A DNA stretch of 64,000 bases from assembly GCA_016800925.1 (NCBI GenBank), contig JABCPU010000043.1, positions 1 through 64,000 on the forward strand, written 5' to 3'. The DNA is from Suillus spraguei. Lineage: Eukaryota > Basidiomycota > Agaricomycetes > Boletales > Suillaceae. Shown one piece after another: positions 8,636 to 31,466 of this stretch. A program made the translations under genes and the position numbers. Positions within the stretch are counted from its first letter, which is position 1; the number at the start of each line of letters is the position of its first letter. The notes beneath the pieces were generated by a model. The model did not search any database. It saw nothing but the letters and a program-made list of their open reading frames with translations, and was not told the DNA's origin.

Positions 8636-8639
8636 TAAT

Positions 8640-9247: not shown

Positions 9248-9714
9248 TCAGTGTGCCACCTGCATTTGAGACTTAGCAGATTTTTTGGCCTTAGGAGTAC
9301 ACTGGCTTTGCTTTGACGGAGATATTTCTGTAAATCAAAATTTGTCAGTGTGGTGATCAAGTAAATATAAGAAAAACTCACCTGGAACTCTGGGACGTGA
9401 TCTTGAGGCATCCAAGATCTTCGGTGATCTTGGTGGTATCGGCTGAGAACCTGGAAAGTTTAATGTTAGTGAATATGACTCACAAGACCAACACACATTT
9501 TGATCTTCTTGCTCTTGCGTTCAGTTGGTACAGTTCTGTACATTGAGTTAGCAATCTATTTGTGAGAAGATTGGAATCAAAAGACATGCACCTTTTCCTT
9601 TTGTGATTGCCTGGTATCAATAAATCTGCCTCACTATTGGCAGATTCCGGGATGTGAACCATCTTGATGAGATCCTTGAGCCGGATGATAAGTTTCTAAA
9701 CCAAAGTTGGTAAG
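9248..9714 (-). pseudogene. C-terminal exon fragments of an uncharacterised gene
   Basis: Several minus-strand exons with short introns can be joined by GT-AG borders. One carries NHKRKR, another VPTERKSKKIKM, then PIPPRSPKILDASRSRPRVP and SPSKQSQCTPKAKKSAKSQ, ending at a TGA at 9248-9250. The composition is basic and low complexity, like the tail of a nuclear protein. It may be the true C-terminus of the gene whose exons lie at 10784-12187, separated from it by the truncated Tc1 end and the LTR between them. This link is inference from position and strand. Confidence 0.4.
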
Positions 9715-9716
9715 TA

Positions 9717-10075
9717 CAGTGGCTCAAAAAAGTGTCTGAATGTTTGTGGAAATTTGTGTAATTGCTTCATTGTGAGTCAGGGTGTGGAAATATGACTAAG
9801 CCATAGTGAGGTGTCAGGAAGCCCTGTGTCTCAGCTTTATTAGTGTTCCCTATGGCGTGGGAATCCACTCACACCATGTGAATATATGGTCATTTTAATT
9901 TGATGACTCATTTGGACACTTTTTGACTTTCAGTTTGACCAACACAATCTCTATAATTCTGACACTTTGTGTGACCTCCTTTTGCTCTAATCACTTATGC
10001 CACTCTTCTAAACATATTATCTATCCATTTCTGATATTCCTCCTTAGCTATCTTGCTCCACCCTGCTCACCTGCC
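9717..10075 (-). mobile_element. Truncated Tc1/mariner end
   Basis: It starts CAGTGGCTCAAAAAAGTGTC right after a TA at 9715-9716. It then shows the inner motif GACTCATTTGGACACTTTTTGA at about 9902-9924, so it is one whole terminal repeat. The start of the adjoining coding end follows, which on the minus strand reads MFRRV then VIRAKGGHTK, matching the C-terminus of the intact Tc1 transposases (PRRIEAVIKAKGGHTKY). The rest of the element is missing. It is clearly more diverged than the two intact copies. Confidence 0.75.
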
Positions 10076-10199
10076 CTTGCATTCTCACCCACCCTCGCAT
10101 TCTCACTTGACTTCTCATCCTCACCCATCTTTGCAATCGCAAAGCCCTTTCCGCATGCCAGAGCCCTGGGTAATGTCTTTGCAGGCAATAGTGTAATAT

Positions 10200-10700
10200 T
10201 GATGCATTAGAGCAGGCTAAGTAGCCTAGCTTTGTGATGCATCAAGCTTGCTCATTGTGTGATGCATCATCTGTCCGGTACATATTTGGGCTGTGCTGTC
10301 CATATTTAGCACTCATCCATCCATCGTGCCCTATATACCCTGCTCCCGGCAGTACCTTGCTTACCTACTCCTTGCTTCCCACTTTGCCCTGATAGTACCT
10401 TGCTTACATACTCTAATTCTTTGGTATCCGGCCACTCAGTACTCACTTTAGTAGGTCTCTTTCTGTCTTTTTCTGCTTACATACTCTAATTCTTTGGCGT
10501 TCGGCTACTCAGTACTCAGTATTCACTTTAAGTAGGCCTCTTACCTGTTCCAGCTCTCGTTGGGATTAGTAATAGGGTTCAAGTTTTGAATTCACTAAGT
10601 CTGTGTGAGCCTTGAATTCACTAAGTCCCTCACTCCATTCCGCCACCTTGTTCTGATTATGTAGTATGGAGTCAAAATAACTGTATTGCAGGTGCGACAC
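10200..10700 (+). mobile_element. Candidate solo LTR with AATAT direct repeat
   Basis: Starts TGATGCATTAG and ends GGTGCGACAC. AATAT occurs at 10195-10199 and again at 10701-10705, as a target duplication should. A TATA box (CCCTATATACC) is at about 10330. Inside are two partly repeated blocks with CTTACATACTCTAATTCTTTGG. The right end does not finish in CA by one base, so the exact border may be off. No coding potential was seen. Confidence 0.5.
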
Positions 10701-10783: not shown

Positions 10784-12187
10784 TCAAGAGTGCCGAGCCT
10801 TTCTGTGGAGTTTATTAGCGTGTTTTTGCAACAAAATAAAATGGACGTACTTCCGTGAGTCTGCGGGGCGAGCACGACGTGCTGGGACTCCAATGTTGTT
10901 ATCACGCTCTTGTGGATTGAAGGGAACATTGTTACGCGCACAGAGACGAGGCGCGTTCATCTCCATGTGCACTGGCAATGTAGGTGGGTCCATGGATGAT
11001 GTAGGAGCCAGGGATCTGTCAACACACCGTCTGCGTGCCCCATGGCGAGGATGAACCTCCGGCTGGTTGAGAAGTGAATCATCGTCCTGTCCTTCCTCAC
11101 TATTCGCAGATGGGACAGCAGGGAGCAGCACCTCCATTTCTTGATTTGATGGGGGGCAATCACAGTCGTCTGGAGATGTCAGGTTGGCGGGAGACTGCGC
11201 AGGCAAATCTGACAACTTGTTGGTAGTATCAAGGGCCCGCATGGACCTGACCAGTCATTGTCAAGGACACCAGGCTCAAAGTAGGGATTGTTGACAATAG
11301 CAGCGAAGGCATGGGGATCAAAGGCAGAGAAATTGGTGGTGCCTTCTACGATGGGGTCGAAAGCAGTAGAGTGAGAAAGAAATTCGGTAGCGAGCGATGA
11401 ATTATCGACAGTTCCAGCCATGCTGCCAAGCGCCGTTGATGCATCAGCTGATGCCTGGCTAGCAGTTGTGGGAAACACTTTGGGCAATGCAGAATCCAAG
11501 AGGGTATCCAATGGAGTAGTATGTGAGCCACTCTGTGCGCACGGTGAGACACATTTCACTGCATATTGGTAAGCTATTACTCACAGCATGATCCTTGAGA
11601 ATTTCATCACTGGCAGATTAGGGAGTTATGCGATACAGGTTGTTTGTATCAAAGAGTGCGAGATCCTCGACTTGACTCATATCCTCCTCAACACTCTTTC
11701 CTCGTCTATTGTTGTTATCTTCGTCAAAGTCCCAGTCTGATGAGGACTCTTCGTCTTCATCCTCTGCCATCTCATCATGTGGTAGGGTAGACTCAAATAC
11801 TGATTGGGGAGCACGTAAGTCTGTGTCTCTGAATTTAGAAACTTCAGCCATACCGAGAGCATTTTGAACGAATGCTAGGAATGCAGCTTGCATTCCATTG
11901 AAGTCTTTGTACACATGATTGAACTGGGCACCACTTTGAAGTTCGCCTACGTGATAGCTTGATTACGATAAGCACAGTTTTCCTTATGTTTGCGAATGTT
12001 GCTCACTTGTAAACTGATGTTTCACCCGTCCTAGGATCACGACCTCCCATAAGAACCGTAAACTTCCACCCGCCCGTAATGTGCGTGAGATATTTGAGGA
12101 TGCAGTCAAGCATTGGACCTAGCTCCCGAATAGCTCTACCGCAGAGGATTGAAGTCAGTAATGTGACATTCAATTGATTAGTAGGTA
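10784..12187 (-). pseudogene. C-terminal half of uncharacterised Agaricomycete protein
   Basis: Read on the minus strand from the Tc1 border at 12187, the frame starts at once with VPTNQLNVTLL, then GRAIRELGPMLDCILKYLTH and GGWKFTVLMGGRDPRTGE. After an intron comes GAQFNHVYKDFNGMQAAF. The rest is an acidic, Ser/Pro-rich tail. The GWxFTVLMGG-DPR signature is one I associate with an expanded but unnamed Agaricomycete family, and I know no function for it. It has no N-terminus here; the missing part is at 24441-25612 beyond the second Tc1. A TAA at 11618-11620 and a frameshift near 11245 mark it as decaying. Confidence 0.7.
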
Positions 12188-13804
12188 CAGTGGCTCAAAA
12201 AACTGTCCGCATGTTTTGACATTTTTCACTATCTATGATATTGTGTGAGAATGAACAAATTCCTCAAGGACATACTTATACCACATTGTAGTATGGCTTC
12301 AGGGCTTTTATTTGAGCCCTACACCGTGGGAATCGGCGGAGATATGGTGGAGATATAAGGCTTATAAAATGATGACTCATGTGGACAGTTTTTTGAGTGT
12401 ATATTAAAACTATATAAATCATTATTTATGACACCATAAAAATCATGCCACTATTATATAAATTATAAAGTGGTGTCATTATGTTATTTTATGACTATAT
12501 CTAACTATATAAACCAGAATATCTCATGTATCATAGTCATAATCACCATGAAAGCCATCTCCTCTGCTCAAAGAGATAATATCCTCTCTCTGTCTTATGC
12601 TGGCCTCTCTGCTCGCCAAATTTCCTCTAGAACTGGAGTATGCAAGTCCACTGTGGCCAAGTTCATCAAAGAAAGCCACCCAGACAAGGAAAACTCTTGT
12701 GGAGGACGTCCATCCAAGCTTACCTCTACTGACAAAAGGGCTATTATCCAACATATCACTACAGGAAAGGCTGATAATGCTGTCCAAGCCACCCATTATA
12801 TCAATTCCACCATCACTACCCCTGTCTCTTCACAAACTGTGAGGAATGTTCTCAAGGCAGCTCATCTCAAGGCAGTAACAAAGAAGAAAAAGCCTCTTCT
12901 CTCCATCAAACATAGGCAGAGAAGACTAGCCTTTGCCTTAGCTCATCAACACTGGACTGTAGAGGACTGGAAGCGTGTTATATGGTCAGATGAGACCAAA
13001 ATCAATAGGATTGGGTCAGATGGGAAGGTGTATGTATGGAAAAAGAAGGGAGATGGCCTAACAGACAGAGAGGTTAATGGGACTGTCAAGTTTGGAGGAG
13101 GTTCTTTAATGGTATGGGGCTGTATGGGATGGAATGGTGTGGGAATGCTTGCTGAGGTTGAGGGGAAGATGAATGCTGAGCAGTATGTGGACATTTTAAA
13201 TGACCACTTGCTGCCTAGCTTGGCAGAATCAGGGATTGATGAAGAAGATATCATTTTCCAACAGGATAATGATCCCAAGCACACATCCAGAAGAGCTAGG
13301 GAATGGTTTGAAGAACATAACATCAATGTTCTTGACTGGCCAGCACAGTCTCCTGATGTCAATGTCATTGAACATCTCTGGGGAACACTCAAGAAAAAGC
13401 TTCAAGCCTATGAAAACCCCCCTAAAGGAGTATGGGAGCTTTGGGAGAGAGTAGCAGTGGAATGGGGGAAGATCACAGCTGAGGATTGCCAGGAATTAAT
13501 TGAGAGTATGCCTAGAAGGATAGAGGCAGTAATTAAAGCCAAGGGAGGTCATACAAAATACTAGAATACCTGGTTATTACTGTAAAATACTTGAGTCAAA
13601 AAACTGTCCGCATGAGTCACCATTTTGTGAGCCTTGTATCTCCACCATATCTCCACCGATTCCCACGGTGTAGGGCTCAAATGAAAGCCCTGAAGCCATA
13701 CTACAATGTGGTATAAGCATGTTTTTGAGGCATTTGTTTGTTCTCACACAATATTATAGATAGTGAAAAATGCCAAAACATGCGGACAGTTTTTTGAGCC
13801 ACTG
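12188..13804 (+). mobile_element. Intact Tc1/mariner transposon, copy 1
   Basis: The element is 1617 bp from CAGTGGCTC to GAGCCACTG, flanked by the TA duplication at 12186-12187 and 13805-13806. The terminal inverted repeats are long, about 209 bp (12188-12396) and 210 bp (13595-13804), and imperfect. Each begins with CTCAAAAAACTGTCCGCATG and ends inward with a GGACAGTTTTTTGA motif in the opposite orientation. It carries one complete transposase gene. Every part I compared with the inverted copy at 25615-27231 is identical. Confidence 0.97.
12548..13564 (+). CDS. Tc1/mariner DD34E transposase
   Basis: Encodes 338 residues from the ATG at 12548. An upstream in-frame ATG at 12470 gives 364 residues, but the added residues are hydrophobic and unlike the family, so I prefer 12548. 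The N-terminus holds two helix-turn-helix units (LSYAGLSARQISSRTGVCKS, then GGRPSKLTSTDKR). The catalytic triad is present: D in WSDETK, D in FQQDNDPKHTS and E in SPDVNVIEHLW, with exactly 34 residues between the last two. The frame is uninterrupted and lacks introns, so the enzyme may be active. It catalyses excision and insertion at TA, acting on the terminal repeats that flank it. Confidence 0.97.
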   Translation: MKAISSAQRDNILSLSYAGLSARQISSRTGVCKSTVAKFIKESHPDKENSCGGRPSKLTSTDKRAIIQHITTGKADNAVQATHYINSTITTPVSSQTVRNVLKAAHLKAVTKKKKPLLSIKHRQRRLAFALAHQHWTVEDWKRVIWSDETKINRIGSDGKVYVWKKKGDGLTDREVNGTVKFGGGSLMVWGCMGWNGVGMLAEVEGKMNAEQYVDILNDHLLPSLAESGIDEEDIIFQQDNDPKHTSRRAREWFEEHNINVLDWPAQSPDVNVIEHLWGTLKKKLQAYENPPKGVWELWERVAVEWGKITAEDCQELIESMPRRIEAVIKAKGGHTKY

Positions 13805-14694
13805 TATGAAGATTCAACTTCTTAACCTTTTTGCCAGAGGACCTTTCCTTTCCTTTCCCTTGGAGGATTCACCCTGCTTTGCACTCAAAGCAGCTTCACG
13901 ATGTCCTTGAGTAGCATGCTCCTGCGGAAGCTCAGTAGTATGATAGTGCTCACATGTGGTCTTGCTGAATTGCAGAACTGTCTGTCCAAGAATGACTGTA
14001 GCACTATCAAAGAGGGAGAGTGTGTTGTCTGTGTGCAAGCGAAGTTTAGCAAAAGCGTGTCAGGTTGCCAAGTCAAAGAGCAGATTTAAAACAATCAAAT
14101 TATGAGTCTTGGGGAGGAGATCCTCGAATACTGGAAGCACACACTGAATCTCAAGAGTATTAGCAGATGTATGACTCACATAGATCCAAAGACTTACCTG
14201 AAGGAGATTCTCAAAGTCTCGACCTGCCAATCTCTTCATCACTGAAGTGTTCTTGTGAAACCATCAGATAGTGCCACATCTGAATGTTGGAACTGCCTGA
14301 TACCTTCAAGGCATCAAATTATTGAAATCTCTTGATATGATTACTCACCGTTTATTCAACTTTTGGATAATATTACCACCTTGGGCATAGAGGATGCGCA
14401 ACAAGTGGATGAAAATTGCCTTCCACACGCCAAGTTCAAATTTGTGTAGAAGATCAACAACAAACATAATAAACATGTTAAATCCAAATTTCTCGAGTTG
14501 ATCTGAGAAAGTGTTCTATGCAGAAGCATTAAATATCCAATTCAGTTCAGTTTATGATGGAGCTTACTTGGATAGGGACATAAGACTCATCACTGAGAAT
14601 CGCCTTGACATGAACTCTATCAACAGATGCACCAAGCTCAAAAATGAGCCTTCAGGCGTTCTCGATATCTCGACAGTTGTGTTGATTGTCCACT

Positions 14695-15425
14695 CGTTTT
14701 TTTTGGTCTCTTGATGCTTCATGTTGAGCTTAGTACCCATCTTTGGAACGTCACATTTTTTCACAAGGCAGCGCGGGCACAGACACTGGCCAAGGAACTT
14801 GATGCTCGGCAGAAGGACCCTAAAACAAACTGTGAGCAAGCAAAAACAAACAGAATAATTTAATACTCACTTTTCAGGGTAATCAGCAGAATATGAGAAA
14901 AATTGAGGGAACACACAACATGTGATTCCATTTGCGCAACGAATAACCATTCCATGCTCATAGGCATGCATGAAATCTTCATCAAGCAATAACTTCCAAA
15001 TTGCTTGAACAAGTTCATGCTTACAGAAGGTGTGGACCTCATCTGTTGTTGCTTCACCCACGTTTTTTTTGGTCTCTTGATGCTTCATGTTGAGCTTAGT
15101 ACCCATCTTTGGAACGTCACATTTTTTCACAAGGCAGCGCGGGCACAGACACTGGCCAAGGAACTTGATGCTCGGCAGAAGGACCCTAAAACAAACTGTG
15201 AGCAAGCAAAAACAAACAGAATAATTTAATACTCACTTTCAGGGTAATCAGCAGAATATGAGAAAAATTGAGGGAACACACAACATGTGATTCCATTTGC
15301 GCAACGAATAACCATTCCATGCTCATAGGCATGCATGAAATCTTCATCAAGCAATAACTTCCAAATTGCTTGAACAAGTTCATGCTTACAGAAGGTGTGG
15401 ACCTCATCTGTTGTTGCTTCACCCA
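14695..15425. repeat. Near-exact 366/365-bp tandem duplication in the Plavaka gene
   Basis: Copy 1 is 14695-15060 and copy 2 is 15061-15425. Reading them base by base I find one difference, a T lost in the CACTTTTCAGG run (14868 region against 15235 region). Each copy holds the end of one exon (HTFCKHELVQAIWKLLLDED to SADYPEK), a short intron and the next exon (VLLPSIKFLGQCLCPRC to HQETKKN). Both copies begin at CGTTTTTTTT. It is either a very young duplication or an assembly or gap-filling artefact. Confidence 0.9.
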
Positions 15426-15499
15426 CAATATATTTCCTGAATATCATCTGGAAGCTGTACATATGACCGTCAAATCAGTAGTTACATCTATAGGAAACT

Positions 15500-15985
15500 T
15501 TAAAGACTATGTCCACTACTGGGTAGATCCAGAGCTAGACAATAATCTTGACCTATAGTATGTGCAATGGGGTAAAATCAGGTACTGTATCGTGTGGGGT
15601 ACGTGGTGCTTATATATCCTAAATCATATGTACTCAGAATGCTCTAGGCGAGATCAGTAGTGCTCAAGTATAGTAACCACCATATGTAAACATAGTGTGA
15701 GGTGCTGCGGCACGAGGCAACATGTAATAAGGCTTGCCATGGAATCAGTGATAATGAACATAAAACAAACAACACACCAAATGGAGCTATGCAGACGCGG
15801 CAAGGACATGGGAGGACATCGGTATGTGGAATGAGGTGCGGCAGTCGGTACAGTGTGCGGTAAGCGTGGGATGCCGCTGGTAATGCTAAAGGGGTAAGAT
15901 GGCCATGGACAAGTGGTAACTCCTATAGACGTGAGACGAGTGTCAAAAGGTAGGGTTTTAAGCCTAGTGCCAATATGTTCATTAC
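15500..15985 (-). mobile_element. LTR-like insert replacing part of Plavaka
   Basis: This block lacks Plavaka coding sequence, which is continuous before and after it apart from a missing piece. On the minus strand it starts TGTAATGAAC just after the codons for DDIANTL. It holds a TATATAAGCACCACGTACC promoter-like motif near 15610, and its far border is unclear around 15540-15560. No target duplication was found, so a deletion probably accompanied the insertion. It could also be other non-coding DNA. Confidence 0.35.
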
Positions 15986-17133
15986 AACGTGTTTGCAATG
16001 TCATCCTCAAAAGCTGACCGAATGACTGATGTGAGCAACCAGTGATAAATTCCTGGCACTTCGAGTTCTGGTGCGTGTTCCTCTGATTGCCATTTCATTC
16101 GTTCTTTTGGTAGGCGAATTTTGACTGAAGATTGACACCACCCAAATTCTTCATGCAGAGGATTTGACTGATCTTGCAGAGACTTATCTAATAGTTTAGC
16201 CTCACAAGTGCAAGTGAAGCCAGCCAGATCCTTCGATCTGAAACATGGGTGCTGGTGAATACCAGCTAGCCAATTAATTTCAGTGTCAGATTTATTGTTC
16301 ATCCCAGTATAGTGCCAGGACATCAGCAATCCACATGTTTGATTGGTGAATGCATCAAATAGATGGTCATCATCCACACCCAGGGGTGCGAGTCCAGTAG
16401 TAGACACGAGTGAGCCCAGGCCTGTCACAGGTGGTCCTTCAAGCGCCGGTGCATCTGTGAGATTGATGAGGGAAGTATCGTTTGGAGGGATGAAGGAGGG
16501 ACGAGCTGGGTAGACTTGATAAAGACCCATTGAATCTGGATCCATCTGAAAAGGGTCTGCAGGAGGCAGCTCGACAAATAATAGATCCTTGTCAGAAGAA
16601 TCTGATGGAGTTGGTTCCTGCTGAGGAGGTGCACGGCACAAAGGTTTCTTGACTGGCATGTGAGCCAGGGGTATTGAGGAACCAGGAAGGTAGTCAACAA
16701 AATGCTGGGGCATTCAAATAGAACACCCCGAACACTTTGATAGACATTGCATGGGTGGAGTGGGTGACCTTGCTGGCGGTGGAGTGGGTGGATTTGCTGG
16801 CGGTGATGGCAGGCGAGACGGTCCAGCAATGTTCATGTCCTAGAAATAAAATAGTAGTATACACAAAGAAAATTAAACACAAGCTTACCTCGAGATTGAG
16901 ATCCACATAGTCGAGCTGGTCTTCAGCAAAACTTTCTTCTTCCACCTGCTGATGGTGCTTCTTCATGTTATGGAGAAGATCTCATCCTTGAGACTTGCGT
17001 TTTTTGGCCTGTTTTGAAAAAAATCATCCAAGGTCAGTGCCTTGTTCTTTTCACACTTTAAGGCATGCATGGAGAGTTGTCTCTGTGACATAAAGCCCTG
17101 ACCACAGCCAATACAATGGACTGTACTATCCAT

Positions 17134-17812
17134 AATGTGAAGATGGTGGATGTGCACTGACAACAGAGAACAGGAACTGCTCACTTTCTATCAGTATTGT
17201 AGTCTGCTGATCATTTAAGGTGCTTGCAGGTTCGGAGTAAATGCATGCGGTGATCTGCCATAGGGTGAGTCTCAAGTCACAATGCAATGCCAGTTATCAG
17301 AATTAGTTATGATTATGGTGCATACAGTATGTGAAAGGGCATGTATAAGAAGACAACAAAGGGTTAAGAATCAGAATTACCACATACAGTAGTCCAGAAC
17401 CTTGTGCGGTACTTGGTACACTGGACACAGGTCCTGTTCCATTGCAGTATAGGTACTTATTCTGGTCCATTCAGAAGGCTTCAGAAGGTGGTGGATGGCA
17501 TGGGCTGAAAGAGCAAGGGCAAAGACCACAAGTCCCTGTAGGGTTGATGCATCAAGTCTGTTAGTTTTCAGTAATAGGTAATGCATCAACTCCGTACATT
17601 ACAAAGCCTCACAATGCATTGGTGATGCATTAGAACATGCTAACTATCAGACTTGAGTACCTTGTGTAGTACTATACTTTGCTCTTCCCCCGGCCAGTTA
17701 TTAACCCCGGTAACTTCAAGACAGTAACTTTGAGACTGGCAACTTCATTCATCAGTGATGTAATACAAGGTACACTACATAGGTACCAACAGTAGACAGA
17801 AAATCCAAAGCA
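17134..17812. other. Spacer between the Plavaka start and the KDZ end
   Basis: No supported gene. It should hold the 5' end of the Plavaka element, but I found no clear terminal repeat. TGATGCATCA and TGATGCATTAGAACA words at 17524 and 17621 resemble the start of the LTR-like element at 10200, so an LTR scrap is possible. A 70-residue minus frame (17377-17589) has no recognisable domain. Confidence 0.35.
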
Positions 17813-20800
17813 TCAGGGCATATTACCTGGGATTGGTAACATGGCAGTTGGATTGCCCAGTATATCTTGTGGAGAAATAAATGGGGCCCATATGCTGCGA
17901 AAATGGGCAGCGAGGCGATGGCGAATATTGGCTTGCTGCGATGCATAAGCACGTAGGCCTTCATCCCGGGCAGCAGTTCCTGGTTCTTCTCCATTGCAGG
18001 GGGCAGACTCGTAGACCTGGAGGACTCCCTGCCCTTTCCACCAATTTGCCTGCCAATTAAAAAATTGCAGGACCTGGCGCATCTCCTCCTGGAGAAGATC
18101 TACTTCTTCAGCCCAACAAAGCGCCCTAGCACAGGATTTACACCATTCGACGCGAACACCTAGCAAATACTGAGATTAATTCCACCCAAACGAAAAAAAT
18201 CAAAACGAAGCCTTACCATCGACATCCCCACCATCTGCACAGCCGTCCACACCGTCCATCATCCAAATCCATGTTAGCCTTCGCCTTCCCTCTCCCTGAG
18301 TGGCAAATGGATCAATGAGTGGCTTCACATCGTCATCAGAGAGGTCCTGCAACCGCCCGCGCCAATCTACTTTCTTCAGAATGGGTGCGAGACGTTTGAG
18401 CGCCCCCCATGCGGTCCTATAGCGCTTCACGCAGGCCGCCTGCCTGGCATGTACACATGTGAGTGCATTTTGAGCCCGAGTGTTGGCCCCATGGCCTCAA
18501 ATCCACTCTCTCTTGAAATTTAAGAGGGAGCAGTGTACACGGAGGCACTGCCTAAGTTCTTCTAAAGCGTTGTGAGCTTGCACAAACCGCAACTCCCACT
18601 CGATATGCTGGAGGTGGGGATCGCAAGCATTGCCATTCAATGCAGATGGGAGCCACAGTTTTATGAGCTCAGCATTATCGAGATCACTGGTTGCTGACGC
18701 GGTGACAAGCACTTGCACCGATGGCACGTACAGAAGTTGGGTCTGCCTCCATGAGTCAATCTTTCGACGAAGAGAAATCCTTGTGCGGAGGACACTCAAT
18801 TTCTGTGTATCTGTGGCATGAACACCCAGATTGTCGGCTACGACCTTCAAACACCGTCTTGTAGAAACTTTTAGCGTGGTAAGGGAGACACAGGCTAATC
18901 ACTCACTGTTCTTCTTCGAGGTCCATACCTGATGCAACGAGTACACTTGGTGATACGTCAGGGTGAAGTGAAAGATCTACACCACGCTCGAGCTCCTTGG
19001 CCTCGAGCTGGGCCAAACTCAAGTGCGCACTGGCTTGCGTAATTGCTGGTCGATATATTAAGTAGGGTACACCAAAGAGATATCAAACCAAACTTACTGA
19101 TGCCTTTCGGCTCTAATGGGTTGGTAACTGTCATATCGTTCGGGTTTTCCTCCCATGCCTCCATTTCAGCCTTCCAGGCCATGCGGTTTTCAGAAGAAAT
19201 TGCTATCAAACTCCTCAAAAGCAACACCGTGTTCGGCCTTTTCTGTCTGAGCTTCTTTTATCTTGAGCAAGAGCAATGATCCTAAGACCAACTCTATCAG
19301 TTTTCACGCATGTAATACCACGCAACTAGAGCTCACCAAGTCCAACCACTTTCTTCCAGTTCCAGTCGCCGAAATGGTCGTCTAGTGTGTCTCGACGACA
19401 TCCTGGACCCATAGCCTTCGTGCTTGAAGCTACAGGATTGATATTGGACCAGCCTCACTCTGGTGCCTCGCCATCTGTGCGCCCCACAAAGCGAGTAAAG
19501 TTGAACGAAAAAATGGTTTGGCACTTGGAGACGTGCGCAGGGAGATGAAACTTAGGCACAAAAAATGGATCGTCCTCGCAACATAATTAAAGTGGTGTGA
19601 AGGCGGCAAAGACAGCATGCGCGACCAAAGATGCTTGTGCCATTGGCAAGCAATGTCATATGACACGTTCAAGGCATCCACCGTCGAGTGTCGTAGTGAT
19701 GAGAAAAACAAATAATCCATGTTCAAGTACTTGATTGTGTTTGTCAGATCAGATCATAAAATCAGTGAGAAAACACACTTCTCTCCCTTTTGAAGGTCGC
19801 CAACTCCATTGGGACGCTTCATATTATGACGTGCGCAATCAACAGTACCCACTCCCATTGCTGCAAGTCCTTGAGACAATTTGGTTTCTGCCATATTCAT
19901 GGCATTATGGTTCGAGCATGTGCTTTTCTGTAAGTTAGAATGGTCAGATGGCATCTTGATGCAAGCAGTGAAGAAACATACCTCTTGTATGTCTCCAATC
20001 CTGTCCAAGATGTAAGACTTGTAAGATTTCTCCTCTACAAAATAAGCCCAACCTTGTGAAAGGCTGGGATCAGTCTCGTCGGATGACACAGCACGTCTTT
20101 TCAGACAAAAGTTGGCATCAATCGCTAGAAAAAGACCATAAAGCCAACTGGGACATGATCAGCGCTCCCGACCACCTCATGATATACATCGGACTCACCC
20201 TTTGGCCTTCGGGGCATCTTGCCAATCATCTGGGAGATTTTTCCCAGGTTGCGGACATGCAGGGCATAGCACAGCACACTGACCCTCTGAAGTACCTGCC
20301 ACACCACTTGGATCATGGCCGCGACCTGAGCGTTTTAACATCACTAAATGACGCCATTGACGAATCATGCGCATGAAAGATTCATAATGGTCCTGAAGCG
20401 ACAGTGTGAACTGAGAAATTAACACTTAGAGAGATTAAAACTTACCTTTTGTCACGTCAAGCCCGTGTTGTCTGTTAAATGAACCAGCGAATGATAAAAC
20501 TCGTATGCGGAGGTCTTTGATTCAAAGGATAGGACATGATAGTGATGAAGAACACGAAATGTTGCAGCCGATCGTGGATCAGTAGAAGTCGATGGATACC
20601 AACCAGCACGCAATAGTTGCTTGGTATGTGTCTGGGAGGTCGTGCAACCACAGAAGTCCAGCCCAATCTCATGTACGCCATTTGTGTCAATGAGAACAAA
20701 TTCATCATTGAATGCTTTCTTTGGAAGAATACACCGTTCGCCAATTGTATGACCAAGCTGTACGCGAAGACCCATAGTTTTCAATGAAATGCGCTGAAAA

Positions 20801-21570
20801 AATTGACCAGTCCATTCCTAGGAGGCTAATGAGTGATCAGGACTTTCACAGCTAAGAAATAAAGCTGACCTCTATACGATGAGTAGGCAACCGTATGTGA
20901 TACTGGATGATACAGAGACCACAGTATAATTGTGAATCTAAGTAGTCCTGACACCGATATTGAGGGGGAGTCGATGTTGGACATGGACATCCAGGACACA
21001 CATCAGAAGTGTAACCTCTGCGTCCCTCGTGCTGCAGCAGTTCCGCCAGAAATAAATCGCGTTCATTCATCCAGATGAGAAGGGGGTCGTCCTAAGGTTT
21101 CATTCAATGGGAGCAATCACTTATCACTAAATTAAACATACCACGGGCATTCGCTTGCGCCCTGGTGTATTCTCTGAATCGTCTAGTAGTACAAACGGAT
21201 CTGGTTCTCCGAAATCATATGAAAGATCACAGAAATCCTCTCCTGGAACAGCAGATTGATTGTCGGGTTCATAAGATGGTGATACAGACATGGTTCCCCG
21301 GATTTGCTGCCTAGAAACCTTCAAAATGCCATCTCGGCAGGACGAAAATGTGAAAGAGGCATGGATTGGTGCTTGGGAACGCTGGTTGGGTGGTGTATAG
21401 TGGTTTAGTCGAGCTCGTTTTCGGCTTGGGTTTGATTGCCCATGCCCACGGCTGTTGATCTGGCGGAAGGTCCACGGAAGAGGTGCGGCCTGAATAGTTT
21501 GCAAGGAAGGACCCGATGATTCATTGTTGGCACTTGTGCTAGCCCACATTCCAGTTAACTGATTCAACAT
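17813..21570 (-). pseudogene. KDZ (Kyakuja-Dileera-Zisupton) transposase
   Basis: About ten minus-strand exons can be chained with GT-AG introns of 35-60 bases. The order is as follows: a Ser/Pro-rich N-terminus; a CxC2-type cysteine cluster near 20880-21020 (CPGCPCPTS, YRCQDYLDSQLYCGLCI, LPTHRIE); FCGC near 20645; the signature CPACPQPGKNLPDDWQ near 20260; WLYGLFLAIDANFCLKRR near 20120; CSNHNAMN; ARHNMKRPNGVGDLQKGEK; YDIACQWHKHLW near 19650; and a long coiled-coil C-terminus ending near 17813. These are hallmarks of KDZ DNA transposases. In-frame TGA codons occur at 19455-19457 and 18497-18499, and frameshifts near 19560 and 19190, so the copy is dead. KDZ elements can travel with TET/JBP genes, but none was seen here. 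Confidence 0.88.
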
Positions 21571-21694
21571 CGCAATGGCTGGCTGCAGAACTTTTCGTTT
21601 CGAAACTTCTCACGCCAGAAAGACCGGGATCCGACGCAACACGAACAAGACCATATGCCATTGATGAAACTCTACAGAACAACTAAAATAGTGC

Positions 21695-21985
21695 CTAGGG
21701 TTCCACCATCTCCACTTTGCCCTGATCAATAGCCTCCCGAAGCAGCCTCTCCCCAATTGCGATGGAGACTGCATTATTGATCTGGATGGAAGATGGGATA
21801 CGCAAGCCTTCAATGAAGAATGGTACCTGGGAGTGCATGATTGTTAGTGCAGGGACTGGAGAGGGACAGTACATGCCCTCTATAATACCTCTATATAGAC
21901 CTGCAAAGCGACGTATGTGTCTTGTGGGATCCGAACATGTCTTGTGGGCATTTGACTTACTGAAATTGTCAAGATTCAGACACAA
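21695..21985 (-). pseudogene. Unrecognised frame upstream of KDZ
   Basis: An open frame of 96 codons contains FAGLYRGIIEGMYC, VPFFIEGLRIPSSIQ and IGERLLREAIDQG, which look like real protein rather than random sequence. Several GT and AG sites inside would allow short introns, so the frame may be a set of exons. I do not recognise the family. It lies just upstream of, and on the same strand as, the KDZ gene and could be an accessory gene or a relic. Confidence 0.3.
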
Positions 21986-21989
21986 GGAG

Positions 21990-22880
21990 CCTGTTCAATA
22001 CATTTAACACGTATTAGACTTACCAGAAAAGAAATGGTGTGTTGGAGAGAAGCTCAAAGGTCTGAAACTGAGAAGCTCAAAGGTTCTGAAACTTGCATTT
22101 GAGTTGCTGAAAGTAGGAGGATAGGATGAACTTAGCCGTTGTTCACAGTGGTGTATAGATTACATAATATGGTCCAACCACTTATTTCAGTCCGACCATA
22201 CAGTTCACAGCTGTAAGTATCAGTTATAATTGAAGCCATTCACCTACATGTCGCAGCTGAGGACCACCGTGATCCATGGAACAACAATGCAGTGATATGT
22301 TTACCTATATATGAGTCACCATGTGTGGACAACAGCTCAGTTTTGCATCCAACTACTGGGTGGCGTCATGGCGTCACTTCATTCACACTGAATACTAACT
22401 TGAATGAATGCTAACAACAGCTCGAATTCAGGGGAACTTGTTAATCCTCATGCTACATAGGTAAGTCTATGATGAAATTATCGTGAAAGCATGTCATGAT
22501 GATGTATATATCACTCCCAGGCAGGTATCTTTAGTCCATTCCTCTGAGATAGCAAGTCTCTCTTGGACTTACCATCTTACTGTGTTTTATGGTCCGACCA
22601 TCTGCAGCATAAGTGCTTCCTAGGTGAGTCTACAATCATATTTATTGACAAAGGTATGTCATCATGATATATATACTACTCCCAGGTGTCTGTTGTCTAT
22701 TCTTTCTGAGTATGCAAGTCTCACCCCGACTTATCATCTTACTGTATGTTTTACAGTCCGACCTTCACACCAATCGAAGACTTGTTGTTTGGGTCCAAAT
22801 AGTGTAAGGGTCTATTTAAATGCTTCGTTCTTTTGCTCCTCACGATCCAAGGTTACTTTGCAGTCCCTCCATTTTTCACC
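21990..22880. other. Non-coding stretch with an imperfect direct repeat
   Basis: No gene recognised. Two imperfect units at 22457-22600 and 22620-22763 (period about 163) share a TAGGTRAGTCTA start, a TATCACTCCCAGG-like middle and a CTTACTGT...GTCCGACC end. A further TCCGACCAT word lies at 22190. The promoter of the gene that starts at 22881 would be at the right end. Confidence 0.55.
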
Positions 22881-23570
22881 ATGGCACGCCCAACATTATA
22901 CAAAACTCATCAGGCTAGACTACAAGCAGCGAAAGAAAAGTGCCGTCGTCATTATCAAAAGTAAGTGATGAAGTGACGGTATCTAGGAGTCAAGTTAACC
23001 AAAAGACTCCCCAGGTTTTGAGAGTCTATCCTGGCCAAGAGGCGTCAGTCATGCAAAGAAAAAAAATCTCAAGGCAATGAACCTTCGGACAACGAAGACG
23101 AACCAATGTATGTACTGCGTAGACTTGGTTGTGTTAAGGTGTCTGACTTTTACATCAGCAAAACCTTACATGACTGCATTGCTACAGTTAAGTACGCCAA
23201 GGATGACTTCATGGCCTATGTGAAAAGTCCACGATGATTCTTCGACCTCCTCGTGGATGAGTACTCCAAAACAATGCCTGACCCCGAGTTACACCCTACC
23301 GCGAATGGAGACAAGTCTATATTCGAGTGCGCTATCACATGCTTGGAAGACTTCCTCGACCAAGCTAATCGCGGGCTTGATGGTATCCTTCAGATGTGTG
23401 GTGTGAGTGATGAGTGGTGTGCTGCAGATGGTGTCTGCAGGTTCATGAGGGAGATGATAGGGATGATCGAAGACATCTTGTTGCGTCTGGCGGAGGGCGG
23501 AGACGGTGAACTATCAATCGCTTTCATGGGGAATGAGTTGTGGTACCAGGAGTACAAATTCCCCGTCTAG
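22881..23570 (+). pseudogene. Expanded Agaricomycete family protein, unknown function
   Basis: Three or more exons. The first starts MARPTLYKTHQARLQAAKEK at 22881 and has GT-AG introns at about 22961-23014 and 23108-23158. The later part includes FFDLLVDEYSKTMPDPELH, CLEDFLDQANRGLDGILQM and SIAFMGNELWYQEY. The MxRPxLYxT start with a basic YYxK-like region, followed by a small helical domain, matches proteins often seen as unnamed multi-copy genes near transposons in Agaricomycetes. Two in-frame TGA codons (23019-23021 and 23235-23237) both stand where arginine would keep the protein intact (KFRESILAKRR and KSPRRFFD). It is therefore a pseudogene, or its introns differ from my reading. Confidence 0.55.
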
Positions 23571-23726
23571 TTAGTACATGCCCTGTAGAGCTTCTATCTT
23601 GGTTTGCAAGACCTCCAGAATACAATTACAGATGACAGTTTGAAGTGTAGGGGGGCTATGCACAGATCTCTTTGCGAAGACATGTGCAGGCGCACGGCTC
23701 TGTGATTCAACTGCTCTCCTCTCACC

Positions 23727-24120
23727 ATGTCCATGTCACAGATTGCAGTCCTCACACGTGACCAGCACGATATGCTTAAAACATTTTTACCTGCTTTTAA
23801 AATTGCTCGTTCCGGGTCAGTGGAAGAGCGGGAATTTTTTTGGGAGAGCATTTACTCCCAGTGGTTCGCAACTTGGCCTGAACGTGCTGTGCATTTTGGG
23901 GAGATACCTCACGATCAAGTGTTGTCTGACCTGCAGGAGACATCACTCATTGAAGCCATTAGGCGCCGTTGTCGAGTATGTCACGACTCATTTCATGTTA
24001 AGGGGGACATATATTGACTGTAGGAGAAGCGCATTCAGAGTTTTGTACTTATGAACACGTTGTATCAAGAGACATGTGTGACGCTGAAGGAGCATTTTCC
24101 TGCGAGGAAGTCGAGAAGGT
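23727..24120 (+). pseudogene. Fragment related to the N-terminus of the 24441 gene
   Basis: MSMSQIAVLTRDQHDMLKTF begins a frame whose pattern (FxxxFxxArxG..EEREFFWESIYSQWFATWPERAVHF) parallels the protein starting at 24441 (LSFMSEFCES...DDFFMRIWALWFERWSEEHVIF). A GT-AG intron at about 23976-24025 leads to a second exon with KRIQSFVLMNTLYQE that ends at a TGA near 24120. It lacks the rest of the family's length, so it is a short relative or a remnant. Function unknown. Confidence 0.45.
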
Positions 24121-24440
24121 GAGAGATTCTGGCTGGGTCTTGTACCACAAAAATTGATTCAGTATATCAGGGGATAGACAAGGTAGTCAGTCTGTGTGCA
24201 CACAAAGTGAGAGGATGTGGGCATGTCATTATATGCATTATATGTGTAGATCTAGTGTAGATATTGAGAACTTGCCTTGCACGGCGCATAAATGAGTTAA
24301 ATTAGTGAAGCTCTAGACATATATATTATCAATAAGGACCGCACAGAAGAAGTTGAGGATCACCGTACTTGAATATTGTCTCCCATGAAAGTGCGCTCCA
24401 TGCATTTTCTTCATTTTTTTAAAAACTCACCCTGCTACAG

Positions 24441-25612
24441 ATGGCGGGCAAGAAGTGGGCTACTCCAGAGCAAGAGGAATTTCTCCTCAGCTTCATGTCT
24501 GAGTTCTGCGAGAGTGCCGCAGCCAAGAACTACGATGATTTCTTCATGCGCATCTGGGCTCTATGGTTCGAAAGGTGGTCTGAGGAACATGTCATCTTCA
24601 AAGACATGCCAGATGACTATGTTCGCACCCTGTTACAAACTGGGGTAGCATCACCAGCGACAGTGAAAAGACACAGACAGTCTGCTGGGAAGCTCTTACA
24701 ATGTCCAAAAGAAGACAAGGTGAAAGTACAAGGAACGCGTTCCAAGTACGATCAAGGGTTCAACCTCAAAGACGAGTCTAAGAGGTATCCGCGAGAATAG
24801 AGACTAAGGCTAAGGAGTGCTTAGACTTAGAGACAATTCAAGACGACTTAGGTTGGAGGCCTAAGCGAAGGAGATTCCAGCTAAAACCCAGTAAGATTAA
24901 AGTAGGAAATCTACTACAAGTACACTTGTGCTTAAATAGGCCAATATGTGCGCACAGACCAAGTAACCATGAGAATGTAACTGCGTATCCTAATAAGGAA
25001 GGCATGTATTGTACAAATGCGTTGAGCATATGAGTCATAGTCTCGTGACAAGATATACAAGTAAAGGAACGAAGGAAAATGAATAGGGGCACATATGATT
25101 GTAACACACCCCGGACGACATTAAGGCTCTGGCAAGAGCAGTTGAGATGCGTCAGCAAGTAAGAACATGCACGAAAACCAGATAAAACACATACTGATTG
25201 ATTTTACAGCAACTGGTTACCTGGTATAGGTGGCAGATAAACCCTGCGCATCATGCTTGCTCAAAAGGCGCCAGGGGCATGCTGAAATTTGATACCGTCT
25301 TAGGTGGGGGCATGGAACTCAAAGGTACACGGGCACCCCAAAAAATCGATATTTACTCGCACAAATTCTATGAAGCGAAGGTTAAGAATGTTGCAGACAA
25401 TGCAATTACAACAGAAAACATCACCAATAGAGGCCCGAAGCTGAATAAGTGCCGTGAGATCATGCAGCAGATGTACTTGGAGGAAAGTGAGTCTGTCAAA
25501 GCGGATATTGATAGGAAGTATCGCAAGGCAAAAGCAAATTTCGCAAAAAAGTGCCAGCAGCTGAAGTGTGGGAAGCCATTAAAACTCGATGATGCCACAA
25601 AAGTGAAGTATG
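24441..25612 (+). pseudogene. N-terminal half of uncharacterised Agaricomycete protein
   Basis: Starts MAGKKWATPEQEEFLLSFMS. The first exon is cut by a solo LTR (24631-25106). Removing it with one copy of its CACCC duplication restores the frame from DDYVRT straight into PDDIKALARAVEMRQQ. A GT-AG intron follows (about 25158-25208), then LVTWYRWQINPAHH, RAPQKIDIYSHKFYEAK and CGKPLKLDDATKVKY, which runs into the Tc1 border at 25613. The continuation, VPTNQLNVTLL, is found on the minus strand at 12187 beyond the other Tc1. The W-Y motif near the second exon start and the later GWxFTVLMGG motif suit the same unnamed family. No function is known to me. Confidence 0.7.
24631..25106 (-). mobile_element. 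Solo LTR inserted in an exon, TSD CACCC
   Basis: 476 bp, reading TGTTACAAAC to GATTGTAACA on the plus strand. It is the reverse complement of the family at 4087-4711 and 7810-8283. The target duplication is perfect: CACCC at 24626-24630 and 25107-25111. It sits inside the first exon of the 24441 gene and its removal restores the reading frame, so the host gene was intact at insertion. An open frame that crosses from the host exon into the LTR is only a fusion artefact. Confidence 0.93.
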
Positions 25613-25614
25613 TA

Positions 25615-27231
25615 CAGTGGCTCAAAAAACTGTCCGCATGTTTTGGCATTTTTCACTATCTATAATATTGTGTGAGAACAAACAAATGCCTCAAAAACAT
25701 GCTTATACCACATTGTAGTATGGCTTCAGGGCTTTCATTTGAGCCCTACACCGTGGGAATCGGTGGAGATATGGTGGAGATACAAGGCTCACAAAATGGT
25801 GACTCATGCGGACAGTTTTTTGACTCAAGTATTTTACAGTAATAACCAGGTATTCTAGTATTTTGTATGACCTCCCTTGGCTTTAATTACTGCCTCTATC
25901 CTTCTAGGCATACTCTCAATTAATTCCTGGCAATCCTCAGCTGTGATCTTCCCCCATTCCACTGCTACTCTCTCCCAAAGCTCCCATACTCCTTTAGGGG
26001 GGTTTTCATAGGCTTGAAGCTTTTTCTTGAGTGTTCCCCAGAGATGTTCAATGACATTGACATCAGGAGACTGTGCTGGCCAGTCAAGAACATTGATGTT
26101 ATGTTCTTCAAACCATTCCCTAGCTCTTCTGGATGTGTGCTTGGGATCATTATCCTGTTGGAAAATGATATCTTCTTCATCAATCCCTGATTCTGCCAAG
26201 CTAGGCAGCAAGTGGTCATTTAAAATGTCCACATACTGCTCAGCATTCATCTTCCCCTCAACCTCAGCAAGCATTCCCACACCATTCCATCCCATACAGC
26301 CCCATACCATTAAAGAACCTCCTCCAAACTTGACAGTCCCATTAACCTCTCTGTCTGTTAGGCCATCTCCCTTCTTTTTCCATACATACACCTTCCCATC
26401 TGACCCAATCCTATTGATTTTGGTCTCATCTGACCATATAACACGCTTCCAGTCCTCTACAGTCCAGTGTTGATGAGCTAAGGCAAAGGCTAGTCTTCTC
26501 TGCCTATGTTTGATGGAGAGAAGAGGCTTTTTCTTCTTTGTTACTGCCTTGAGATGAGCTGCCTTGAGAACATTCCTCACAGTTTGTGAAGAGACAGGGG
26601 TAGTGATGGTGGAATTGATATAATGGGTGGCTTGGACAGCATTATCAGCCTTTCCTGTAGTGATATGTTGGATAATAGCCCTTTTGTCAGTAGAGGTAAG
26701 CTTGGATGGACGTCCTCCACAAGAGTTTTCCTTGTCTGGGTGGCTTTCTTTGATGAACTTGGCCACAGTGGACTTGCATACTCCAGTTCTAGAGGAAATT
26801 TGGCGAGCAGAGAGGCCAGCATAAGACAGAGAGAGGATATTATCTCTTTGAGCAGAGGAGATGGCTTTCATGGTGATTATGACTATGATACATGAGATAT
26901 TCTGGTTTATATAGTTAGATATAGTCATAAAATAACATAATGACACCACTTTATAATTTATATAATAGTGGCATGATTTTTATGGTGTCATAAATAATGA
27001 TTTATATAGTTTTAATATACACTCAAAAAACTGTCCACATGAGTCATCATTTTATAAGCCTTATATCTCCACCATATCTCCGCCGATTCCCACGGTGTAG
27101 GGCTCAAATAAAAGCCCTGAAGCCATACTACAATGTGGTATAAGTATGTCCTTGAGGAATTTGTTCATTCTCACACAATATCATAGATAGTGAAAAATGT
27201 CAAAACATGCGGACAGTTTTTTGAGCCACTG
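25615..27231 (-). mobile_element. Intact Tc1/mariner transposon, copy 2 (inverted)
   Basis: 1617 bp, the same length as copy 1 and in reverse orientation, flanked by TA at 25613-25614 and 27232-27233. Both terminal repeats and the transposase frame match copy 1 where compared, including the small differences between the left and right repeats. Its left neighbour is the N-terminal half of the uncharacterised gene and its right neighbour the C-terminal third of Plavaka, which do not belong together. See the inversion finding. Confidence 0.97.
25855..26871 (-). CDS. Tc1/mariner DD34E transposase, second copy
   Basis: The 338-residue product, from the ATG at 26871, is identical to that of 12548-13564, with the same HTH units and the same D, D, E residues 34 apart. 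There are no stops or frameshifts. Identity of two full copies in a region full of decayed elements shows recent movement, gene conversion between the copies, or duplication of one sequence by the assembler. Confidence 0.95.
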   Translation of the reverse strand: MKAISSAQRDNILSLSYAGLSARQISSRTGVCKSTVAKFIKESHPDKENSCGGRPSKLTSTDKRAIIQHITTGKADNAVQATHYINSTITTPVSSQTVRNVLKAAHLKAVTKKKKPLLSIKHRQRRLAFALAHQHWTVEDWKRVIWSDETKINRIGSDGKVYVWKKKGDGLTDREVNGTVKFGGGSLMVWGCMGWNGVGMLAEVEGKMNAEQYVDILNDHLLPSLAESGIDEEDIIFQQDNDPKHTSRRAREWFEEHNINVLDWPAQSPDVNVIEHLWGTLKKKLQAYENPPKGVWELWERVAVEWGKITAEDCQELIESMPRRIEAVIKAKGGHTKY

Positions 27232-27233
27232 TA

Positions 27234-28696
27234 CGTACAAATACCATGCGCTTGGGGACTACCTGAACACAATCTGATGCATGGGGACAACCGACAACTA
27301 CACAATGCAAGTGGTGCATACACAATTTAATTTTAAAATTGATGCTTAATGGTCTGACAGGGTGAGTTGGAGCATCGATGTTCCAAACATTGGTATCCAA
27401 GGACAAACAAGAATAGGAAAACCTTGCTGAAGAATATGGCTGTTCAAGAATCACGGTCCCGTATTTTTATAAAGATTAATGCACAACTAAAGAGCACCCT
27501 TGCGGCTCGAACTGCGCTCAGGAATACACACTGTCGCCAACAGACATCTCCCTCCGGCCATTATCATGTCGCAAAGCATCCGAGGGCATCATTCAACCTC
27601 ACCTCCTGGTTGACTGACATCAAAGATGATGATTCAGCCAAGAGGGTCAGTCTTTTCCCTTGACGATATCATATATACTAAAGGCACACACATCAGAACT
27701 TTATTCCCCATCTGAAGGACCATCTACTTGCATGCCTTCATGGCCTTGACTACTCAGGCGATGAACACACATTCTCAGATGTTGAGTGAGACCTTATTAT
27801 CTTTGCTAACAACAAGATACATGAACACAGCATCCTTCGAGTAAACTACACGACGTATGATCTCAGGAGAGAGCAAGACTGTATCAATCCCTGAACTCAC
27901 GCTGATCTGATGGTGCTCTCGCATGAAAATGACGATGAATGTCACCCTTATTGGTATGCTCGTCTCATATGCATATTCCATGTCGACATCTGGTATTATG
28001 GTGAAAAGAATGCACCATCAACATCAAAGCACATGGACGTCCTGTTTGTGCGCTGGTTTGGACGAGACATGAATTTTCATGGCGGGTTCTCAAGCAAACG
28101 CTTGCATCGCATCGGTTTCCTCACTGATGACATTGATTCAGACTCTGGCTGCTTCGGATTCATTGATCCTGACCAAGTTATTTGTGGGGTGCATCTAATC
28201 CCTGCATATGCTTACGGTCGCATGGAAAAATACCTTGGGCCATCATTTGCTTGTTGTGAGGAAGAGGGTGATGAAGACTGGATGTATTTCCATGTCAATA
28301 TGTATGTTTTATTTTTTTCATATTCTACATGATGCCTTATGCTGATGAACTGACAGGTTCATGGATCGCGACATGTTCATCCGCTTCCATGGTGGTGGTG
28401 TAGGTCACAAGGCAATGCGAGAGTGGGATGAGCTCTTGCTGTCTGACGGCACACCCAACACTATCGCAACACTGAGTGAAACCGATGATGATAACATTAG
28501 TTTAGACTTTGAGGATAGAGAGGACGACCTAGAAGAGGGAGAGGGACATCAAGGTGAAGAGGATAGTGATTTGGATGTAGAGGCGGATGAGGATGAGGTA
28601 GATGATCCAGATGCAGTGATTGCAGACTCGGACGAGGAGCTTGACGATGATATACTTGCTCAGGAAGATATGGTGCACTTTAAATATAAATTATGA
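27234..28696 (+). pseudogene. Plavaka transposase, C-terminal part
   Basis: Directly after the Tc1 and its TA, the frame reads TYKYHALGDYLNTI, then, after an intron at about 27312-27360, GELEHRCSKHWYPRTNKN. Further exons give HADLMVLSHENDDECHPYWY, FVRWFGRDMNFHGGF, KRLHRIGF, GFIDPDQVICGVHLIPAYAY and NMFMDRDMFIRFHGGGVGHK, with an acidic tail ending at 28696. These are the standard Plavaka C-terminal motifs, in order. The upstream part is at 13807-17133 on the other strand. TGA codons at 27275-27277, 27787-27789 and 27892-27894 replace likely arginine codons, so the protein is broken regardless of the rearrangement. Confidence 0.88.
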
Positions 28697-29090
28697 CCGC
28701 AATCTATTAAAAAATGGATAGTATTCTAGTAGTAGGTGAACACAAGGTCAGAACATATTTGGGAGACATGCAGATGATTTGAACCTACCTAGAGCACGTC
28801 ATACTGGTGGCAGCCTTACCAAGAGGGCATCAGTCTCACAGACTTCTTATTGCGCTGACATAATATGAACTTGATATGTCATTGCCCTTACGCTTGTGGC
28901 GCGGGAAATTGTCCAAATAAGGCAGCATCAGATTTTGAGAATTTTGGTGATTGTACCTTGCGTTCACTCTTGCTCCGACCGTTCAGTTTTATTATCACCA
29001 CATGCTCAATTCTGGCCTACTCGAAAATGTATATATGTCATGCATGTACTCTCGTATCTCTAGCGAATTCTATCCTAAAGATTCCCCGCT
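28697..29090. other. Spacer, nothing recognised
   Basis: Should contain the 3' end of the Plavaka element, but no terminal inverted repeat was identified. No supported gene. Confidence 0.35.
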
Positions 29091-29390
29091 CACTGTAACT
29101 GGTCTTAGCCGGATGGTTGCTACAACAGAATCAAAATCTGTTTCTCTTGGACTGTGTAGGATCGAAACCTGCTCATGCCGAGGTTTTTGTCTATCGAAAC
29201 ACACCTTGATATCCATTCATCAATGGTTCCTTTAAAAATTCACCATAACTGGCCTAGCCTGGTGGTTGCTACAGCAGAATTGAATTCTGCTTCTCTTGGA
29301 CTGTGCGGGATCGAAACCTGCCAATGATGAGATTTTTTCTATTGAAACACACCTTGATGTTCACTCATCTATAGTTTCTTTTGATCGAAG
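29091..29390 (+). mobile_element. tRNA-like SINE, tandem dimer
   Basis: Two units of about 150 bases start at AACTGGTCTTAGCC (29097) and AACTGGCCTAGCC (29247). Each has an A-box-like TAGCCNGGTGG and a B-box-like GGATCGAAACC (29159 and 29309). In unit 2 the middle folds into a perfect 5-bp stem GCAGA/TCTGC with loop ATTGAAT, giving a TGA anticodon, followed by a CTTCTCTTGGACTGTG variable arm as in tRNA-Ser. No acceptor stem forms, so these are not tRNA genes. Both units share a T-rich tail with GAAACACACCTTGAT. A tRNA-derived SINE dimer is the best reading. Confidence 0.5.
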
Positions 29391-29407
29391 TCCTTGCCCA
29401 CTGTTCA

Positions 29408-29419
29408 CAGCTTGTGAGT
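29408..29419. repeat. LINE target-site duplication, left copy
   Basis: CAGCTTGTGAGT, repeated exactly at 36030-36041 after the poly(A) tail. It defines the LINE as 29420-36029. Confidence 0.9.
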
Positions 29420-29598
29420 AAATCGCTTCTTGGACCTGAACCAGGTGGCACCCCGACTAGGACCCCGGAAACCAACCGCCAACAACGCGCTCAACAGCGC
29501 TAAGGACGCCCAGAGGCGCCCCAGCGGTCACCAGGACACCAGACAAACCGCCAAAACCCTAGACCAAGAACCAAGAACAAAGCAACAAAGCAAACAAA

Positions 29599-31155: not shown

Positions 31156-31466
31156 TACCCACCACCAAGAAACAGAGCGGAACATGGATGGCCCACCAAC
31201 AACAACAACAACCAAGAACGCGAGGAACGGAACCTCAACAACAGGAACGCCAACCGAATCTTATTGGGAGGTCAATCCCGAATCCCAGAAGCATGGCAGA
31301 TGACAAGACCTCAAGCAGACCACCGAACACAATGGAAACCACCCACCCAAGAAGAGACTGAAACGCAATCAACACCTCCAAGATGGTCTAGCTCCCCTTA
31401 CGGCTCCCCCCACGAACCCTACAGCCCACAAAGAGGGTGGGACCAGGACCATGCCGGAAACTAGTG

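Follow-up and report, generated by a model that had tools for sequence, protein, structure and literature searches.

How did two transposons come to have their halves exchanged across a pair of identical Tc1 elements? The question is raised by a 64,000-bp stretch of the basidiomycete Suillus spraguei (JABCPU010000043.1:1-64000, here called the window and labelled C625 in contig comparisons), which belongs to an 86.2-Mb assembly of 1,256 contigs. A first-pass annotation had proposed that two Tc1 copies bound an inverted segment and that turning this segment round rebuilds two interrupted reading frames, with an assembly error as the alternative. Comparison with relatives in the same genome shows that inverting 13805-25614 restores two ancestral adjacencies. 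Our overall reading, to which we give about an even chance, is a local hop of a Tc1 element followed by recombination between the inverted sibling copies.

Identical Tc1 elements at both breakpoints

Tc1 copy 1 lies on the plus strand at 12188-13804, between TA dinucleotides at 12186-12187 and 13805-13806. Copy 2 lies on the minus strand at 25615-27231, between TAs at 25613-25614 and 27232-27233. Both elements are 1,617 bp long and, as the first-pass annotation had stated, identical to the base. With the TAs, the identity spans 1,621 bp (12186-13806 against the reverse complement of 25613-27233), and the pair is the longest inverted repeat among those listed for the window. The transposase open reading frame (ORF) of copy 1 (12548-13561, 338 amino acids) is open, and copy 2 carries an open ORF of 338 amino acids too. 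The transposase matches the Pfam domains DDE_3 (PF13358, 4.6e-16) and HTH_Tnp_Tc3_2 (PF01498, 1.1e-12), both exceeding the cut-off, and the inverted ends of about 211 bp are 93% alike. TA flanks all four element ends, and a single TA occupies the site in the Tc1-free relatives whose sequence was displayed. Transposase domains, inverted ends and TA duplication all place the bounding elements in Tc1/mariner.

The family is large, young and recently active. Its left-end 36-mer occurs 310 times genome-wide, and close opposite pairs among the listed occurrences seem to reflect elements that carry the 36-mer at both ends. Of two further full copies that were compared, one departs from the window copies at 1 base and the other at 2, and at least 40 near-full-length copies in the scored list, the window's two counted, are assembled whole. 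The best relative in a protein search reaches 93%, on a 1.8-kb contig.

Exchanged flanks rejoin in Tc1-free relatives

We named the flanks A (ending at 25614, plus strand), B (starting at 12187, minus), C (ending at 13805, minus) and D (starting at 27232, plus). The assembled order is B-Tc1-C and A-Tc1-D, and the segment between the elements (13805-25614; 11,810 bp with its TAs, or about 11.8 kb) appears flipped relative to the ancestral order. Flank A was searched alone with a query containing a 410-476-bp repeat; the best 40 of 2,975 first-look candidates were scored and included six relatives at 93-97%, the remaining rows matching only the 476-bp repeat at the query start. A runs directly into B at a TA in five of these six relatives (C447, C408, C373, C338 within 5 bp, and C350). 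The sixth, C1235, has a deletion that jumps from 25564 to 11172, still from the A side to the B side. Flank C, searched alone, gave eight relatives, and C meets D directly at a TA in three of them (C601 and C642 at 93%, C575 at 67-71%). In C354, C576, C1102 and C1023 a gap separates C from D, whose order and orientation are unchanged, and C936 has no D within the piece that was compared.

The reading frames agree with these adjacencies. The frame ending in DDATKVKY at 25612 continues into PTNQLNVTLL, which starts at 12185 on the minus strand, and the Tc1-free relative C447 has a single open frame across this join, reading DDATKVKYVPTNQLNVTLLTSILCGRAI. KKLNLH, ending at 13807 on the minus strand, continues into TYKYHALGDY, which starts at 27234 on the plus strand, and the frame of the Tc1-free relative C601 across the C-D join reads KKVKKLNLHTYKYHALGDYPNTIQHMGTTDNY. 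The relatives' own frames over the A-B and C-D joins are DDATKVKYVPTNQLNV and KKLNLHTYKYHALGDY, so that both joins predicted by the first-pass annotation are carried by homologues in the same genome.

Target-site duplication of a KDZ transposon

Flanks A and B are parts of a single transposon of about 10.1 kb, element X. Its inner part (17527-25614, plus strand) has its A end beside Tc1 copy 2 and relatives at 96-97% on C447, C373, C338 and C408. Its outer part (12187-10182, minus strand), delimited by comparison with relatives, has its B end now left of Tc1 copy 1. X has KDZ (2.2e-21) and CxC2 (3.6e-46) domains, begins with CACAAG and ends with CCTG, and the gene spanning the A-B join has no Pfam family match. 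X is a KDZ (Kyakuja-like) transposon. It resembles two Kyakuja families of Laccaria for which passages of PMC12730594 give a 7-bp duplication and CA..TG termini. As read by eye, TTGATGCAT stands at a similar offset from both X ends, which bears on the Kyakuja criterion of no terminal inverted repeats.

The ends of X provide a test of order that is independent of Tc1, of the reading frames and of the inner sequence of relatives. Both are at a distance from the Tc1 copies, and the supposed inversion takes in one of them and leaves the other out. The end comparison places the duplication CAAAGAC at 17520-17526 (inner end, plus strand) and at 10175-10181 (outer end, read on the minus strand). A 7-bp duplication flanks two of three X copies; it reads CAAAGAC for the window copy and CTGGCAT for that of C447. 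CAAAGAC is a direct repeat only with 13805-25614 turned round; as assembled, the longest word shared within 14 bp is 3. Because a target duplication must be a direct repeat, the rebuilt order is supported, and the single inversion that rebuilds both frames also restores the duplication of X.

A dispersed repeat of 476 bp (24631-25106) is inserted in X and is absent at that point in the six flank-A relatives; similar units of 410-476 bp, very common in the genome, lie at 7809-8283 and 4302-4711. Inverted repeats of 286 bp (35187-35472 and 36259-36544), 98% alike and 786 bp apart, resemble units of about 270-290 bp in X copies on C1235 and C373 and in the C642 copy of element Y.

Flanks C and D form this old element Y, a probable Plavaka relic. 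Its inner part (17470-13805, minus strand) has its C end beside Tc1 copy 1 and relatives at 92-93% on C601 and C642; its outer part (27232-28955, plus strand), defined by comparison with relatives, has its D end right of Tc1 copy 2. A Plavaka match (PF18759) at 14867-15229 reaches 1.7e-5 and 24.7 bits, just short of the cut-off of 26.3, and its frame is broken. The stretch holding it (14703-15985) is replaced by about 85 bp in C601 and C642, and three open frames of C601, which is without the Plavaka-like stretch, have no Pfam family match. The words of the joined C-D frame presumably resemble Plavaka. Termini of Plavaka are given in passages of PMC12730594 as CATCA..TGATG or TGT..ACA, with a 2-3 bp duplication. 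One Y end lies near TGATG(GTA) in C601 and C642, and the other end and a target duplication were not found. A Y duplication was dropped as a second independent order test, the ends being too poorly defined. Within Y, about 365 bp are duplicated in tandem at 14695-15435, the two units being 98-100% alike.

The first-pass annotation had spoken of two split genes. The halves are indeed swapped, but the two genes lie in the transposons X and Y, and neither gene is demonstrably one of the host. Both transposons are multi-copy and sit nested among other repeats, and Tc1 might merely have met the unrelated ends of elements that were already broken. Such a coincidence is extremely improbable, since both half-pairs meet at a TA to the base and X retains matching 7-bp duplications at its far ends. 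The flank adjacencies in relatives refute it for practical purposes.

A second inversion associated with Tc1

The contigs C338 and C373 are near-twins of about 98% in which C338 (25700-44926) is inverted by about 12.7 kb relative to C373 (102039-120288). C338 is laid out as P-TA-Tc1-TA-X(left)-F-Q-TA-TG-TA-X(right). In C373, X is uninterrupted at the corresponding point and Q meets P at one TA (C373:119577-119578). Full-length matches to P and Q occur only on C338 and C373, with partial matches elsewhere. A plain inversion between two Tc1 copies was rejected for C338, given a second breakpoint without Tc1. One breakpoint holds Tc1 and the other TA-TG-TA, and the element itself ends in the dinucleotide TG. 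TATGTA is a typical form of Tc1 scar, and the sequence in C338 is apparently such a scar. Excision scars of Tc1/mariner elements are 2-4 bp according to passages of PMC7913693. An assembler misled by Tc1 poorly explains C338, because the second junction has no Tc1 through which to err; as a caveat on that junction, Q contains hairpin repeats of its own and X is multi-copy.

Chromosome or assembly error

Had the assembler placed the repeats on the wrong sides, the chromosome would read B-Tc1-A ... C-Tc1-D. The fragmentation of the assembly and near-duplicate contigs at 98-99%, which suggest a two-haplotype sample, favor this explanation, as do the inverted orientation and complete identity of the two elements. 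How the assembly treats other Tc1 copies bears on the matter, and the flanks of 18 copies were examined, the window's two included. The flanks rejoin in Tc1-free relatives for C569, C1146, C869, C372b and C669, the last in more than 20 places. The flanks of C936 fit consecutive parts of a Pfam reverse-transcriptase profile (79-161 and 164-205), the second piece below the cut-off. C95, C372a, C423 (local repeats) and C313 (a Ty3-like frame, in a piece with no Pfam match) are ordinary by eye only. Ordinary-looking copies thus make up 10 of the 18, judged by DNA in five cases, by profile in one and by eye in four. C451, C472, C902 and C947 have no relative with which to compare flanks, and the flanks do not rejoin for both window copies, C338 and C297a. 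None of the 18 was shown to be a wrong join. C372 holds an inverted Tc1 pair about 8 kb apart with the segment between them not flipped.

The right flank of the Tc1 at C297:116197 recurs at C297:106831-107031 (100%, about 11 kb off, inverted) and at C23:16537-16737 (99%). It sits beside Tc1 each time (C297:106831-118278, C23:16537-17065) and the left flank does not follow, a pattern that is perhaps a further Tc1 rearrangement.

The elements themselves carry local information. Position 13493 on the plus strand, 311 bp inside copy 1, is a G whose counterpart in copy 2 is at 25926 on the minus strand. The 35-mer with this G occurs twice in the genome, exactly in the window copies, and its counterpart with A is found 217 times, both counts being of exact matches, outside which copies differing elsewhere in the 35-mer fall. 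A family-wide consensus would give A, and the assembly therefore preserved local information inside the element. There is no N in the 298,487 bases retrieved, overlaps counted.

Other observations weigh against an inversion by recombination between Tc1 copies. Identical inverted repeats of 1.6 kb are a classic cause of wrong joins. In contrast to the copies of the window and C447, the C373 copy of X showed no matching target duplication at its ends, and it is perhaps a recombinant of two X copies. C601 and C642 are 99.2-99.9% identical, flanks included, and between C373 and C338 identity is 98.7% across 1.5 kb, of which about 1 kb lies beyond X; because of these near-identical pairs, independent close relatives are fewer than they appear. 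No allelic contig and no uninverted allele was found among the best 40 candidates for each of the queries 17260-23150, 8290-10300 and 27800-29560, which returned other X and Y insertions and dispersed repeats. In the scored candidate lists, the flanks outside X and Y matched repeats only. Swapped target duplications are unusable as a test for recombination, because every Tc1 site duplicates TA.

Taken together, the normal Tc1 copies, the copies assembled whole, the absence of N from the retrieved bases and the C338/C373 inversion indicate that the window inversion is probably real, by whatever mechanism. We infer that the chromosome itself, and not only the assembly, carries the flip. An assembly error, the alternative kept by the first-pass annotation, is unlikely. 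It would have to be reconciled with so many near-full-length copies assembled whole, with ordinary flanks at most of the copies examined, with the private base preserved in both window copies and with a second inversion that has one junction without Tc1.

Recombination or transposase

The private G implies that the window copies either are siblings, produced by a duplication or a local hop, or that one converted the other. In the sequence of events that we propose, a recently active Tc1 would have inserted at a TA within X. A short hop would then have taken it to a TA in the neighboring relic Y, in the opposite orientation. Recombination between the inverted identical copies would finally have flipped the 11,810 bp, yielding B-Tc1-C and A-Tc1-D. 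Oppositely oriented copies stand at both breakpoints and the flanks are exchanged, as recombination requires. The local hop and the crossover are steps that we infer, and recombination between inverted siblings is the simplest account.

The main rival is an inversion driven by transposase, in which a single aberrant transposition between X and Y engaged the ends of one Tc1 and its sister, or those of two nearby copies. Both the flip and the additional copy would then arise together, without homologous recombination. The window copies look like siblings and are placed exactly at TAs, and C338, where Tc1 marks one breakpoint and only TA-TG-TA the second, is as expected from a transposase cutting and joining ends. 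Passages of PMC8225341 describe inversions in which both breakpoints carry an element, and for non-standard transposition they cite impala and Sleeping Beauty. However, anatomy cannot separate this route from recombination, the new duplication being TA either way. A local hop with recombination needs ordinary steps only, and C338 is equally explicable as recombination followed by ordinary excision. The sibling copies and the C338 scar fit both routes, and they make the transposase route likelier than it would be on anatomy alone; we regard it as possible, if only tentatively. That the Tc1 family inverts DNA by its own transposase, one local aberrant transposition duplicating the element and flipping the DNA from its old site to its new one, is somewhat more doubtful still. 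The first-pass annotation had placed two insertions before the flip. The swapped flanks stand, but the order of events is unproven, given that the copies share a private base and a single transposase event fits as well.

Other features of the window

Positions 1-600 form a tandem array of units of about 178 bp, 67-95% alike. An element resembling a long interspersed nuclear element (30265-35294) has a first ORF that is zinc-knuckle-like by eye, without a Pfam match, and a second of 1,122 amino acids that has domains of reverse transcriptase and RNase H, besides weakly matching an endonuclease. Long direct copies at 38626-47038 and 49368-57777, about 10.74 kb apart and 75-90% alike in matched pieces, represent either a tandem duplication of some age or one large element that inserted twice.

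Transposon-bounded inversions in fungi and beyond

Inversions bounded by transposons are well known, and the window adds a case with unusually complete internal evidence. The Galileo inversions of Drosophila buzzatii have DNA transposon copies at their breakpoints, as the window does, and passages of PMC2775673 and PMC4168063 ascribe them to ectopic recombination. Galileo belongs to the P superfamily and its inversions segregate in nature, whereas the window holds a Tc1 inversion of 11.8 kb in one assembly, with an uninformative TA duplication. In maize, alternative transposition of Ac/Ds likewise leaves a cut-and-paste element at each breakpoint and inverts a flanking segment, according to passages of PMC8225341. 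Ac/Ds is a hAT system observed in maize lines whose 8-bp duplication reveals a single event, and the duplicated target distinguishes the transposase route from recombination; for the window, that route is a rival reading only. For humans, passages of PMC3961182 deal with inversions predicted between inverted repeats that are 1.6-24 kb long; there were 22 predictions, 5.1-226 kb in size, and 17 of them were validated. These ranges of repeat length and inversion size include those of the window, in another organism with other repeats and with orientation checked by inverse polymerase chain reaction (PCR). No report of Tc1-bounded inversions in a basidiomycete turned up in searches confined to open papers, some of them aimed at the question, which is weak evidence of absence. 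The KDZ and Plavaka-like elements by themselves point to a basidiomycete host. Galileo inversions are far larger than the window inversion. Impala of Fusarium and Sleeping Beauty are Tc1/mariner elements. Like the window, they reportedly (Hua-Van 2002 and Geurts 2006) involve rearrangements caused by such elements, one of them in a fungus.

Transposons are often blamed for inversions, but a single case seldom shows the ancestral order together with a scar and with how the elements are related. Here, for each of the two breakpoints one genome supplies relatives that lack Tc1; it also has a target duplication that is still intact, copies marked by a private base, and a second inversion with an uninverted near-twin. 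Passive recombination and active transposase thereby become testable against each other by simple PCR in a few isolates. If the transposase reading is true, an element would be left at both breakpoints, as in C625, or, where one copy was lost, an element and a TA-TG-TA scar, as in C338. Small inversions would then keep arising and segregate between fungal nuclei.

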